Source of the DNA: Mucilaginibacter terrigena | GTDB lineage: Bacteria; Bacteroidota; Bacteroidia; Sphingobacteriales; Sphingobacteriaceae | Direction of reading: 5' to 3' | Length of the DNA: 64,000 nucleotides | NCBI RefSeq assembly: GCF_004168255.1 | Contig: NZ_SEWG01000003.1 | Coordinates: 62,001 to 126,000, forward strand | In this document: one piece after another, positions 1,969-20,223 of the stretch | How the letters are laid out: each line of letters starts with the position of its first letter | Position numbering within the stretch: position 1 is the stretch's first letter | Notes under the pieces: model-generated | Database searches by the model: none | What the model was told of the DNA's origin: nothing | The model's input: only the letters and a program-made list of their open reading frames with translations | Position numbers and translations under genes: made by a program

Positions 1969-3261
1969 TTACTTAGGTTTTAGTGCCGAATTAATGTTCC
2001 ACGTTACGCCTACGGCAACCCCTGCCGATTTTAAATTTACCTGCCCGTAGCCTATGCCGGTGAGCGGTAGCTTGTAATATGGTTGTACCCCCACGCCAAA
2101 TTTTGAGCTTATCTCGCGCTGATAAGTCATATTCAGGTTAAGTATCCCCATAATATGTTTGTTTTTGTTACGGATATTATAGGTTGCAGGCCCTCCCGGA
2201 TACACGCCGGTATAATTAAACGTGTAATTTTCGCGCAGCATAAAGTACGATGAAAGGCCTGTACCCAAACTAAACTTATTGCCGCCCTTGTTATAAACCT
2301 GGTAGCCGATATTTAGGGGGATATCTAACACGATACAGCTTGCACTAACGCTTGCCGGATTAGATGTAAACTTGTAAGCGCTGGAGTAGTTGGCAAAATC
2401 AGTTAAGTAAGGCTTATCGGCATAAATAGCGCCCGTAGTTATACTCCATTTTTTTGATACGCCCATGGTTAACAGCAACCCTGCGTTAGTACCCACCTTA
2501 TTTTGCGAAAAGCCTTTAACGCTGTTGATATCAGGCGAAGCCACAAAGCTTAATGCAAAGGTTGGTTTAAATGCTGCCGATGATGCAGGCGCTGCCTGTT
2601 TCTTGTTCGGCTTAATATCATCCACAACCGATGCCAGTACAGGTTTTTTCTCGGCAATAGCGCTATCAACCTTCATACTATTATTGGCAAGCTTATCTGT
2701 TTTCGGGGTGATTAACGTATCAGTTTTTGTCGTATTGATGGCCATGCTAACCGTCTTATCCGGCGGGGTAGTATCGCGGTTTGGTTTTATAACACGTGCC
2801 GTATAAATATCATTGATGCCCAATTTACCGGCAGTATTACGGCCGCCCGCATCAGCAGATAAGGTAAAGAACGATCTGCTTTTACGGCTTATATCATTCG
2901 CACTCATCGCGCTGCTATCACTTGCCGAAAGCGCATTACTTTTGGATTCTGCCAGTTGCTGAGCCGGCGGGCCGTATTTGCCGGTGTCTTGTTGTACCTG
3001 CGGTTTGGTTTTAACCACTTGGGGCGGTGTACCGGTTTTTTGCGCGGGGTTTAAATACAACCAGCCAATTACAAGCAATAACATGGCGGCTGCAGCGCCA
3101 GCCAGTAACACTAAACTGCGCACAATACCTTTAGGTTTCCGGCCATTCAGCATAGCCTCCATAGCATCCCAGTCGCCCTCCCGGTATGGTGCGTTTTCGC
3201 CAGGGTCGTTAAGGCCGCGGCTAAACAATTTATCAATGCTATCTTCTTTTTCCTCTTTCAT
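1969..3261 (-). CDS. Membrane-anchored protein with C-terminal beta-barrel domain, sigma-factor partner
   Basis: 430 residues in three parts. Residues 1-46 are charged and cytoplasm-like, with a WDAMEAMLNGR segment typical of short Bacteroidota anti-sigma N-termini. Residues about 47-69 form one transmembrane helix. A Ser/Lys/Thr-rich linker runs to about 235, and the C-terminus is strand-rich like a small outer-membrane barrel (GTNAGLLLTMGVSKKW, GVAVGVTWNIN). Its ATG overlaps the sigma-factor stop by 4 bases (ATGA), so translation is coupled. I infer that the N-terminus restrains the sigma factor and the rest senses the envelope. No RskA or FecR domain is recognisable. Confidence 0.65.
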   Translation of the reverse strand: MKEEKEDSIDKLFSRGLNDPGENAPYREGDWDAMEAMLNGRKPKGIVRSLVLLAGAAAAMLLLVIGWLYLNPAQKTGTPPQVVKTKPQVQQDTGKYGPPAQQLAESKSNALSASDSSAMSANDISRKSRSFFTLSADAGGRNTAGKLGINDIYTARVIKPNRDTTPPDKTVSMAINTTKTDTLITPKTDKLANNSMKVDSAIAEKKPVLASVVDDIKPNKKQAAPASSAAFKPTFALSFVASPDINSVKGFSQNKVGTNAGLLLTMGVSKKWSITTGAIYADKPYLTDFANYSSAYKFTSNPASVSASCIVLDIPLNIGYQVYNKGGNKFSLGTGLSSYFMLRENYTFNYTGVYPGGPATYNIRNKNKHIMGILNLNMTYQREISSKFGVGVQPYYKLPLTGIGYGQVNLKSAGVAVGVTWNINSALKPK

Positions 3262-16355: not shown

Positions 16356-17438
16356 ATGCGGAAACAACCAGATAATAAGGCTTTAGTGAAAAGGGGGATA
16401 GCCATCTTATCTCTTGCTTTGGCCATATACCTGCTTATGATACTGGCCGATCATCCCTGGGTGATAGAAAAGTATTACTCAGAAGGTTTGTACCTTTTTA
16501 TTTGCCATGTGCAGCACCCGGTTTTTAACCTGTTCCCGTTTAGCATAGGCGATGTGGTTTACGTACTGGCTATAATTTACCTTGTGTATGCACTTGTAAG
16601 ACTAATAATTTTATGCTTTAAAAAGCGGTTTTTACAGGCCGGCATGCTTGTGGCCGGTGTTGTAACAGGTGTGCAGGTTAGCATTATTATTTTTTACCTT
16701 TTTTGGGGGATGAACTATTTTCGCCCATCGGCTGCCGAGCGGCTAAACCTGCGCGACAGTACTTACAGCACCACTCAACTGCAAAAGGTAACCACCATAC
16801 TTATCGATAGCGCCAACGCCAGCAGGGCAAGGGTTACCCCGGCCGATCTGAAACAGGGTAACGATTCTATTTACAATACAGCGGTAAAAGCAGTGATAAA
16901 GCTTTCGGCAACATCACCTTATTACTATACCTACAAGCCCGGCATCAAGCCCTCGCTAATTACGCCCTTGCTTAACTACATCAGCACATCGGGTTACTAT
17001 AACCCCTTTACCGGCGAGGCGCAGATCAACTACCAGATGCCCGCGTTTAACCGCCCCTTTGTGGCCTGCCACGAAATGTCGCACCAAATGGGATACGGGC
17101 CCGAAGACGAGGCAAACTTTGCGGGGTTTATAGCTGCTACGGGTTCAGGAGATAGGCTTCTGCGCTACTCGGCCTATAATTTAGCGGTTAACGAATTTAT
17201 GCAAACCGTGCGTTACACCGATACTGTGATGTTTAAGCAGCTTAAAAAAAGGATCTCGCCGGCAGTACTCGCCGATTTTAAAGAAGAACGCCTGTACTGG
17301 CTTTCGTACCAAAATAAACTGGAAACCATTACAAGTATATTTTACGATAATTTTTTAAAAGCCAACAATCAACCCGAAGGACTGGCAACCTACAACCGTA
17401 TGGTACTGCTGGTAATGGCGATGTATAAAAAGAAGTGA
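16356..17438 (+). CDS. DUF3810 membrane protein with HExxH motif
   Basis: 360 residues. Three N-terminal transmembrane segments (about 14-32, 62-85, 96-120) precede a soluble domain. The motif CHEMSHQMGYGPEDEANFAG places H239-E240-x-x-H243 with a downstream Glu (E250 or E252), the arrangement of gluzincin-type zinc peptidases. DUF3810 is conserved in Bacteroidota without a known substrate. It probably acts as a membrane-anchored metallopeptidase; activity is inferred from the motif only. Confidence 0.8.
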   Translation: MRKQPDNKALVKRGIAILSLALAIYLLMILADHPWVIEKYYSEGLYLFICHVQHPVFNLFPFSIGDVVYVLAIIYLVYALVRLIILCFKKRFLQAGMLVAGVVTGVQVSIIIFYLFWGMNYFRPSAAERLNLRDSTYSTTQLQKVTTILIDSANASRARVTPADLKQGNDSIYNTAVKAVIKLSATSPYYYTYKPGIKPSLITPLLNYISTSGYYNPFTGEAQINYQMPAFNRPFVACHEMSHQMGYGPEDEANFAGFIAATGSGDRLLRYSAYNLAVNEFMQTVRYTDTVMFKQLKKRISPAVLADFKEERLYWLSYQNKLETITSIFYDNFLKANNQPEGLATYNRMVLLVMAMYKKK

Positions 17439-17512: not shown

Positions 17513-17547
17513 AAAAAAATGCGCTCCGTATCTCACCCCGGAACGCA
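17513..17547 (-). terminator. Terminator of the candidate small RNA
   Basis: On the minus strand TGCGTTCCG pairs with CGGAGCGCA (17539-17547 and 17520-17528, one G-U), with a 10-base loop and seven Ts (17513-17519). No protein gene on this strand ends here. Confidence 0.8.
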
Positions 17548-17712
17548 CTACAACATCATTCAAATAATGTTGATCAACTAAACCTCAGATATGTGTTAGT
17601 TTACCCAAGTTTTTTATAGCTAAACCCTTGCGGTTTGCTGGTTAAATCTTAATATGGTCACATTGTGTAAGTTATACAGCAAAAAGCGTTCCTTTACTTC
17701 TTAAAAAATATT
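17513..17712 (-). ncRNA. Candidate structured small RNA, about 200 nt
   Basis: No gene fits the 590-base gap 17439-18030, but its minus strand carries a full transcription unit: a promoter at 17719-17749, no coding frame of note (its ATGs reach a stop within three codons), several hairpins (17622-17626/17632-17636; 17551-17556/17567-17572) and an intrinsic terminator at 17513-17547. Near the 5' end GGAACGC (17686-17692) is complementary to GCGTTCC (17540-17546) in the terminator arm. The RNA can therefore close end to end as 6S RNA does, or form the terminator. No Rfam family is assigned. The rest of the gap, 17750-18030, is AT-rich and holds the promoter of the acylase gene. Confidence 0.55.
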
Positions 17713-17718
17713 AAATGT

Positions 17719-17749
17719 CAAAGATACATAAATGAACGGTGCGTTTAAA
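17719..17749 (-). promoter_or_regulatory. Bacteroidota-type promoter for the candidate small RNA
   Basis: Minus strand: TTTA (17746-17749), 19 bases, TATCTTTG (17719-17726). The -7 box matches TAnnTTTG exactly and the spacing equals the published optimum; the -33 box differs from TTTG by one base. The start would be near 17712. Confidence 0.6.
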
Positions 17750-18030: not shown

Positions 18031-20223
18031 ATGGATCTGAAAAAATTATCCACCCTAATTTTGTTTTGCACTATTGGTATAGCCGTTAGTGCGCAGGCGC
18101 AAAAGTTTTCGGTTACCGAAATTGCCCGGTATAAACAACAAGCTGCGGCCGTAACCATCATTCGTGATAATTACGGCGTACCGCACATTTATGGCAAAAC
18201 AGATGCATCGGTAGTATTTGGGTTAATGTACACACAATGCGAGGATTATTTTAAAGGCATCGAGCGCAACTATCTTTACCAATTAGGCAGGCAAACCGAG
18301 GAAGATGGTGAAGCCCGTTTATTTGAGGATGTGCAGCTGCAGCTGATAGCCGATACCTCCAACGCGATAAAAGACTATAACCAAAGCCCGACATATTTTA
18401 AAAAATTAATGAATGCCTTTGCCGATGGCATCAATTACTACCTGTACAAGCACCCCGAAGTAAAGCCACTTGTGTTTACCCGTTTTAAACCTTGGTATGC
18501 CCTTATGTTTACCGATGGCAGCGTGGCCGCAACTGAAACCGGCGGCATTATTCCGCGCGAGACACAAGCTTTTTATAACGACGAAAGCAAAACGGGTACC
18601 CTGTATCGGTCGCAACCCATTATAAAAAATGCCGATGAAAGGGAAACAGGCTCCAACGGGTTTGCTATTTCGCCATCGCGCACGGAATCGGGGCATGCCA
18701 TGTTGTATATAAATCCACATGTGCCGTTTTATTTCAGAAGCGAGGTTGGGCTTAACAGCGGTGAAGGGCTTCACGCTTATGGCGCGGTTACCTGGGGGCA
18801 GTTTTTTATTTACCAGGGCTTTAACCGGCACTGTGGATGGATGCACACCAGCAGCTATGCCGATGTAGGAGACCTGTATGCCGAAAAAGTGATCAAAAAA
18901 GACGGTAAATGGTTTTATGAATACGATGGCAAGCTTAAGCCCGTTGTTACCCGCCAGCTAAAATTGAAAATTAAACAGGGTAACGAATACGTTATCCGCA
19001 ACATTACCGGTTATTATACCCACCATGGCCCGGTAATAGCCGGCAGGGACGGTAAATGGTTTGCGCTGAAACACAATAACCGGTCGTACAACGCTCTGCT
19101 GGAATCGTGGCTGATTACCAAAGCAAATACGTTTGCCGAATACAAAAAAGCTATGGGCTTGCTGGCTAATACCAGTAACAACACCGTTTATGCCGATGAT
19201 AAGGGTAACACCGCCTTTTGGTATGGTAATTTTATGCCCAAACGGGATACATCGTTTAACTGGGCTTTGCCGTTAGATGGTACCACAACCGCTACTGAAT
19301 GGAAAGGCTTGCATGGGATTGACGAGATAGTGCATGTATATAACCCCGCCACGGGATACATCCAAAACTGTAACTCAACGCCTTTTACATCATCAGGCAT
19401 GGCAAGCCCCGATAAAAATAGATACCCCGCCTATATGGCGCCGGATGGCGAGAACTACCGTGGCATAAACGCCATCAATTTATTAAGCAAGTCCAAAAAC
19501 CTAACACTCGACGGCCTGATAGCAAAGGGTTACGACAAGTACCTGGCTGCGTTTGATGATTTGCTACCCCCGTTGTTTGCTGCATATAACAGTGCGCCAG
19601 ATAGCATCAAAGCAAAGCTGGCCGAACCCATTGCTTTACTAAAACAGTGGGACAGGCGCACCGCAGCATCGTCAGTCGCTACCACTTTAGCTGTAGACTG
19701 GGGCACCTTAATGTTCAGGGCTATTGGCCCGGCTAAACCCGGCGAGAGCAGTTACCAGGTGCAGCGGGTTAAAGAGATGCTTCAAACCCTGCCTGCAAGC
19801 CGGCAACTGGAGTTTTTGAATACAGCCATGCAAAACCTGCAAAAGCATTTTGGGAGTTGGAAGATAGCCTGGGGCGAAATTAACCGCTACCAGCGCCCTG
19901 CCGATGGTGTAACTTTTAGTGATGATAAACCAAGTTTGCCTGTTGGTTTAACTTCCTCGCTTTTTGGGCAACTGCCGTCGTACCAAAGCCGTATCATGCA
20001 AACAAATAAACGTTACGGGTACTCGGGCAACAGCTTTATCGCTGCGGTTGAGTTTGGCCCCCGTGTAAAAGCCAAAACCATTATTACAGGCGGGCAATCT
20101 TTTAACGCAGCATCGTCCCACTTTACCGACCAGGCGCAGCGATATATTAACGGAGAGTTTAAGCCCGTACTTTTTTATAAAGAAGATGTATTAAAGCATG
20201 CCGAAAAAACATATCACCCTTAA
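18031..20223 (+). CDS. Penicillin acylase family (Ntn) hydrolase, possible AHL acylase
   Basis: 730 residues with a signal peptide ending SAQAQ. The precursor layout of the family is present: an N-terminal alpha chain (ITIIRDNYGVPHIYGKTDA), a spacer, and a GSNGFAISPSRT segment in which Ser208 should become the N-terminal nucleophile after self-cleavage. Downstream are the oxyanion and binding elements (NPHVPFY, TGYYTHHGPV, NCNSTPF). Members cleave amide-linked acyl groups from penicillins or acyl-homoserine lactones. The substrate cannot be read from sequence. A weak promoter (TTG-N21-TAATTTTA) lies at 17981-18012. Confidence 0.85.
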   Translation: MDLKKLSTLILFCTIGIAVSAQAQKFSVTEIARYKQQAAAVTIIRDNYGVPHIYGKTDASVVFGLMYTQCEDYFKGIERNYLYQLGRQTEEDGEARLFEDVQLQLIADTSNAIKDYNQSPTYFKKLMNAFADGINYYLYKHPEVKPLVFTRFKPWYALMFTDGSVAATETGGIIPRETQAFYNDESKTGTLYRSQPIIKNADERETGSNGFAISPSRTESGHAMLYINPHVPFYFRSEVGLNSGEGLHAYGAVTWGQFFIYQGFNRHCGWMHTSSYADVGDLYAEKVIKKDGKWFYEYDGKLKPVVTRQLKLKIKQGNEYVIRNITGYYTHHGPVIAGRDGKWFALKHNNRSYNALLESWLITKANTFAEYKKAMGLLANTSNNTVYADDKGNTAFWYGNFMPKRDTSFNWALPLDGTTTATEWKGLHGIDEIVHVYNPATGYIQNCNSTPFTSSGMASPDKNRYPAYMAPDGENYRGINAINLLSKSKNLTLDGLIAKGYDKYLAAFDDLLPPLFAAYNSAPDSIKAKLAEPIALLKQWDRRTAASSVATTLAVDWGTLMFRAIGPAKPGESSYQVQRVKEMLQTLPASRQLEFLNTAMQNLQKHFGSWKIAWGEINRYQRPADGVTFSDDKPSLPVGLTSSLFGQLPSYQSRIMQTNKRYGYSGNSFIAAVEFGPRVKAKTIITGGQSFNAASSHFTDQAQRYINGEFKPVLFYKEDVLKHAEKTYHP

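Follow-up and report, generated by a model that had tools for sequence, protein, structure and literature searches.

FopS, a multicopy family of paralogous small RNAs (sRNAs) of Bacteroides thetaiotaomicron, represses translation of susC by pairing at its start, and is bound by the RRM protein RbpB (PMC11697453). Its members are about 65-70 nt long, carry their seed (R1') in the 5' portion, are present in 12-15 copies in Bacteroidaceae and act on several PUL targets (PMC11697453). Post-transcriptional control of SusC transporters was thus previously described, for FopS, in gut Bacteroides. GibS, another B. thetaiotaomicron sRNA, base-pairs with the translation initiation regions of metabolic genes (PMC11697453).

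The Mucilaginibacter RNA considered here resembles FopS as a multicopy paralogous sRNA of Bacteroidota with Bacteroidota-type promoters and with both intergenic and 3'-UTR copies, in its predicted pairing near the start codon of a susC-type mRNA, and in a host that has RRM proteins (PMC11697453). It differs from FopS by its length of about 200 nt, its 3'-proximal seed, its conserved terminator loop, its confinement to one genus and the single main target found. The two were set apart by description (length, seed position, taxonomic range); the likeness is one of proposed mechanism, and homology is not claimed. GibS, also compared by description, shares the pairing with initiation regions and differs in its targets and in its non-canonical promoter (PMC11697453). 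6S RNA (RF00013) has a similar length of about 200 nt, with no match and no conserved end-to-end helix, and the terminator portion aligns weakly to RteR (RF04181), at 20.5 bits (gathering score 72; E = 1.1), which is chance level. A base-pairing sRNA acting on susC is already known from Bacteroides; the Mucilaginibacter family itself appears to be new.

Locus, promoter and terminator

The whole stretch of DNA that was analysed (64,000 nucleotides) is referred to as the window. It contains a gap of 592 bases between a DUF3810 gene (plus strand, ending at 17438), convergent on the 3' side of the sRNA, and a penicillin-acylase-like gene (plus strand, starting at 18031), divergent on its 5' side; both gene names were carried over from the first-pass annotation. 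In relatives, the best-scoring copy of the RNA was located in this same gap and on the same strand in 47 sampled loci, one or both flanking genes being recognised (hereafter the syntenic loci).

Direct reading of the minus strand from 17749 to 17513 gave a -33-type element TTTA (17746..17749), a 19-nt spacer, the -7 element TATCTTTG of a Bacteroidota primary sigma promoter (17719..17726), about 200 nt without a coding frame, and an intrinsic terminator hairpin followed by a U7 tract (17513..17519). These are the signals that the first-pass annotation had described, and they were confirmed on the sequence. TTTTA is visible at about equal spacing in near orthologs, and TANNTTTG occupies the same alignment columns as the -7 element in 17 of the 47 syntenic loci, all from the near clade, the 5' half being otherwise poorly conserved. 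The terminator tract averages 7.9 U in 10 nt over the syntenic loci. The sRNA gene was accordingly placed at 17513..17712 on the minus strand (about 200 nt), on the basis of promoter, terminator and synteny between DUF3810 and acylase in relatives, with a 5' end deduced from the promoter. Local gene order showed no minus-strand gene downstream of the locus, as had been stated.

A generic sigma-70/terminator scan reported neither promoter nor terminator at the locus, because its promoter consensus is not that of Bacteroidota and because the terminator loop of the window copy, at 12 nt, exceeds its limit. Folding of the window RNA alone was only mildly better than that of shuffled sequences (z -1.9), and comparative evidence was therefore needed. 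The locus appears to have the features of a trans-encoded base-pairing sRNA (its own promoter, an intrinsic terminator and no conserved ORF), and the gap likely holds a small-RNA gene.

Structure and distribution of the RNA family

BLASTN comparison of 256 nt with 60 relatives gave matches in 22 genomes, often at several places in each and mainly in the 3' half. Alignment of 22 copies revealed three stems, P2 (CUUGGRU/RYCUGAG), P3 and the terminator P4, with 97.9% of cells paired and changes on both sides of 9 of 24 pairs; none of 500 shuffles reached these values on any measure, and slid controls were far lower. RNAalifold recovered the same three stems unaided. On the minus strand of the window, P2 lies at 17584..17609 and joins CUUGGGU (17609-17603) to AUCUGAG (17590-17584); 98.7% of its cells are paired over 75 distinct sequences, with both-side changes in 5 of 7 pairs. 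Hairpin P3 (CAACAUUA/UGAUGUUG, 17551..17572) has both-side changes in all 8 of its pairs, and the terminator hairpin P4 (GUGCGUUCC/GGAGCGCA(U), 17519..17548), with its conserved loop GGGGUGAGAUAC, has 98.7% of cells paired and compensatory changes. The family linker UGAGRUUUAGUUGAU is also conserved; the sRNA core carries indels of varied length between homologues.

A covariance model detected the RNA in 101 of 150 Mucilaginibacter genomes (1-12 copies each) and, in about 165 further genomes from the bacterial family, at a single marginal place. This place (genome G320, locus L076), which has no linker, was judged to be a chance terminator. A strict DNA pattern searched against 84,980 GTDB species returned 74 loci, all of them from Mucilaginibacter or unclassified Bacteroidetes MAGs. 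In this set 97.6% of cells were paired and both-side changes were found in 14 of 24 pairs (0/500 shuffles), figures that lean towards the model, since the alignment was fitted to it, and that come from many genomes shared with the first set. A covariation check of the kind proposed by the first-pass annotation came out in favour of the RNA, its three stems covarying across Mucilaginibacter with 0/500 shuffles on every measure. Together with synteny and near-clade promoter conservation, this backs its view that the locus is an unannotated structured RNA, equipped with a promoter and a terminator, and not a leader.

Searches of Rfam 15 found nothing near threshold (gathering thresholds were applied to the window, E-values to the locus and to 12 family loci); known families were rejected as chance matches only, so that the RNA is unannotated there. 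No description of the Mucilaginibacter family was found in the literature searched. As no copy was found in phages, plasmids or viral contigs, spread on such elements was rejected. Judged on sequence comparison, the RNA is a member of an undescribed multicopy family confined to Mucilaginibacter (and unclassified Bacteroidetes MAGs).

Genomic contexts of the copies

Outside the syntenic gap, about 23 of the sampled paralogs lie behind MacB/FtsX permease genes, five sampled loci behind OMP_b-brl_3 outer-membrane proteins and two behind multihaem cytochromes. Many of these 3'-UTR paralogs have different P2 and P3 stems and have retained chiefly the linker and the loop of the terminator. Copies that closely follow a MacB/FtsX stop codon (L087-L091, L094, L096-L101, L103, L104, L108, L109, L115-L117), whose permeases end in NPVKSLRSE or similar, are candidate 3'-UTR-derived sRNAs. 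Two tandem copies (3013-3117 and 3345-3481 of L119) stand behind a single outer-membrane beta-barrel gene.

Other copies precede genes. Three sampled copies (L107, L073, L085) are located 73-150 nt upstream of bacteriophytochrome histidine kinase genes, and five are located 72-78 nt upstream of SusC-type receptors. The latter have weak U-tracts (5.0 U in 10 nt vs 7.9 at the syntenic loci), so that transcription may read through into the receptor gene. The genome of the window also contains a second, degenerate copy (L086 5007-5091; G000 contig C1 314306-314390), flanked by genes for a GH5 cellulase and for another SusC-type receptor; its U-tract is weak and it shows no clear linker.

Complementarity to a susC leader

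The candidate target was found through the leaders downstream of the susC-linked copies, which carry ATCAATTAAATCTCA or close variants directly before the ATG. In the genome of the window, 59 CarbopepD_reg_2 matches were obtained and starts could be set for 51 of them; one leader reads AATCAACTAAATCTCAATCTC-ATG, in which the family consensus UGAGAUUUAGUUGAU finds its exact complement. The corresponding gene (G000 contig C2, start 187501, outside the window) encodes a SusC/RagA-family TonB receptor (TIGR04056, E 1.9e-244), the solved relatives of which are SusC homologs. A GH3 beta-glucosidase gene precedes it, and SusD-type ORFs and an FG-GAP/UnbV_ASPIC protein gene follow. The susD after the target susC is divided in this genome between two ORFs (L408 10278-12112, SusD-like_3 then SusD_RagB), possibly by a frameshift or a sequencing error.

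The linker of the RNA is complementary to AUCAACUAAAUCUCA, at -20 to -6 of the start codon of this single unlinked gene. In the window copy the seed UGAGGUUUAGUUGAU (17573..17587, minus strand), which overlaps the 3' arm of P2 and the conserved linker and is antisense to the susC initiation region, forms 15 pairs with it (14 Watson-Crick and one G.U). Upstream of the seed site, the leader carries UCAAAUA, the complement of the P3 loop region UAUUUGA, and pairing there would extend the duplex. The seed duplex was predicted at -20.0 kcal/mol; among 300 other initiation regions from this genome, the best gave -15.6. For the 67-nt core the duplex reached -36.2, against a shuffled mean of -14.3 (0/2000 shuffles as low), and one GC-rich unrelated initiation region reached -35.2 with the full core, via scattered pairs.

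Local alignment of the sRNA with the reverse complement of susC positions -60..+30 extended the match in relatives to about 55 nt, start codon included. Scores of 52-57 were obtained in G005, G022, G026 and G032 (shuffle maxima 32-35), with 54-57 against shuffle maxima of 32, over about 43-59 columns, in G005, G032 and G026; in G032, 56 nt of RNA are involved, and the match starts in the P3 loop, crosses the start codon and takes in codons 2-9. The window's own copy scored 36, just above its shuffle maximum of 33 (background maximum 24), and that of G003 scored 41, a value exceeded by at least one shuffle (46). An inverted copy of the susC initiation region may have been the origin of the sRNA core.

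Target orthologs were identified in 94 of the 150 genomes; 90 leaders were read, most of them with an identical site. Identity within the leader is 0.84 in -40..-1 vs 0.36 in -110..-61, and codons 2-6 show 100% identity at their third positions over 30 orthologs, downstream values being lower on average. In nine leaders (L362, L368, L369, L371, L372, L376, L380, L383, L388) a second ATCAACTAAATC stands in tandem upstream of the first, as if there were two pairing sites. Neither the terminator-loop complement (GTATCTCACC) nor the linker complement (ATCAACTAAA) was tied to a single gene by enrichment, as both showed no clear genome-wide excess over reversed controls, which fits one main target rather than many.

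Co-occurrence and compensatory changes

RNA and target were both present in 93 of the 150 genomes and both absent in 48; eight had the RNA only and one, G007, the target only, and in this last genome the aligned gene differs and has no site. Fisher's test of the association, which like the shuffles ignores phylogeny, gave p 1.3e-29. In G003 the site ATCAACTAAATTTCA (U for C) is matched by UGAAAUUUAGUUGAU in the sRNA (A for G), a seed variant found in 1 of 139 distinct copies; the site of G166 carries the same change as that of G003. Sites with at least four As were found in G016, G011, G146, G083, G094 and G159. Linkers with at least four Us were counted in 5 of 8 copies from five genomes with 4-A sites, vs 3 of 131 elsewhere; the two features co-occur in G016, G146 and G011, but in G083 and G094 the copy examined has a 3-U linker. 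Complementarity to the target mRNA thus appears to be conserved with compensatory changes, in one clean case and several partial ones.

Proposed mechanism and alternative explanations

These observations make it probable that the locus encodes an antisense sRNA acting in trans to repress the translation of a susC mRNA. The RNA would be transcribed autonomously from its own promoter, starting at the position deduced above, and ended by the intrinsic terminator, the loop of which is part of the conserved core. In the cell, pairing would cover about -20 to -6; a gapped duplex would reach from about -45 to +20 and take in the AUG. A duplex at the initiation region should block 30S binding and presumably yield less receptor, and synthesis of the downstream susD would probably be lowered too. 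Additional copies are found in 3' UTRs and in some susC leaders. A point against this reading is that the sRNA fold, as predicted, already engages some of the seed bases. The UGAGAU terminator loop may make a second contact with the repeated AUCUCA of the leader, or serve as a protein site.

The same RNA and target could also be joined by pairing that activates or stabilises the susC mRNA. The predicted mRNA fold leaves the target site largely unpaired, and a duplex could also protect the mRNA. Pairing at -20 to -6 and over the AUG is, however, where known sRNAs block initiation, and FopS pairing at a susC start represses translation (PMC11697453), which leaves activation unlikely.

It is quite unlikely that the RNA serves mainly to sequester an RNA-binding protein through repeated UGAGA(U) hairpin loops, as CsrB/RsmZ do for CsrA. 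UGAGA is repeated in the core more than in shuffles and is a conserved part of the terminator loop, extra GUGAGAU-loop hairpins occur in several paralogs, and the genome of the window encodes three RRM_1 proteins, with no Hfq detected in it. Yet AUCUCA, to which UGAGAU is complementary, is present twice in the initiation region of the target; antisense pairing therefore explains the recurrence, and canonical copies carry UGAGA for certain only in the terminator loop.

The number of paralogs behind MacB/FtsX permease genes would agree with a dispersed strong terminator, or 3'-end module, that spreads with such genes and whose complementarity to susC is incidental. This is very improbable in view of the promoter at the syntenic locus, the conserved linker outside the terminator, the conservation of the susC leader where pairing falls, and the co-varying changes.

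The first-pass annotation had further proposed two exclusive folds, a 6S-like RNA closed end to end or the terminator, from the complementarity of the 5' segment GGAACGC to GCGUUCC in the terminator arm. The letters are exact complements in the window copy, the only one of the 47 syntenic loci with full 7/7 pairing; elsewhere the 5' segment reads GGAACAC, GGAAUAA, GGUACAG etc., and the terminator arm is the same in nearly all. The end-to-end pairing has a predicted ensemble probability of 0 and the terminator one of about 1. RF00013 gave no match in the genome of the window while five control genomes were positive; RF01685 (6S-Flavo) matched neither this genome nor the controls and is thus uninformative. 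Identity with 6S RNA was rejected for want of an Rfam match in the window and of a conserved closing 5'/3' helix around a central bubble, and the probability of a 6S-like or bistable terminator/antiterminator RNA is practically negligible.

Significance

If translational repression of susC is borne out, an apparently independent and differently built sRNA family would do a FopS-like job in Mucilaginibacter. The interest lies in the comparative case, in which family, target and compensatory variants were all obtained from sequence alone. With its named target site and natural compensatory variants, the family makes the use of sRNAs in Hfq-less Bacteroidota testable outside the gut, and it offers a case of a terminator-containing RNA module behind many different genes. 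As a tentative extension, a genus-wide network can be envisaged, in which an ancestral sRNA originated as an antisense copy of a susC initiation region and was later dispersed as a module. It would have entered the 3' UTRs of genes for MacB-type permeases and for outer-membrane proteins, as well as the leaders of susC and phytochrome-kinase genes. When transcribed, those genes would release or embed receptor-repressing RNAs, acting in trans or in cis, and efflux and envelope genes would thereby be tied to nutrient uptake.
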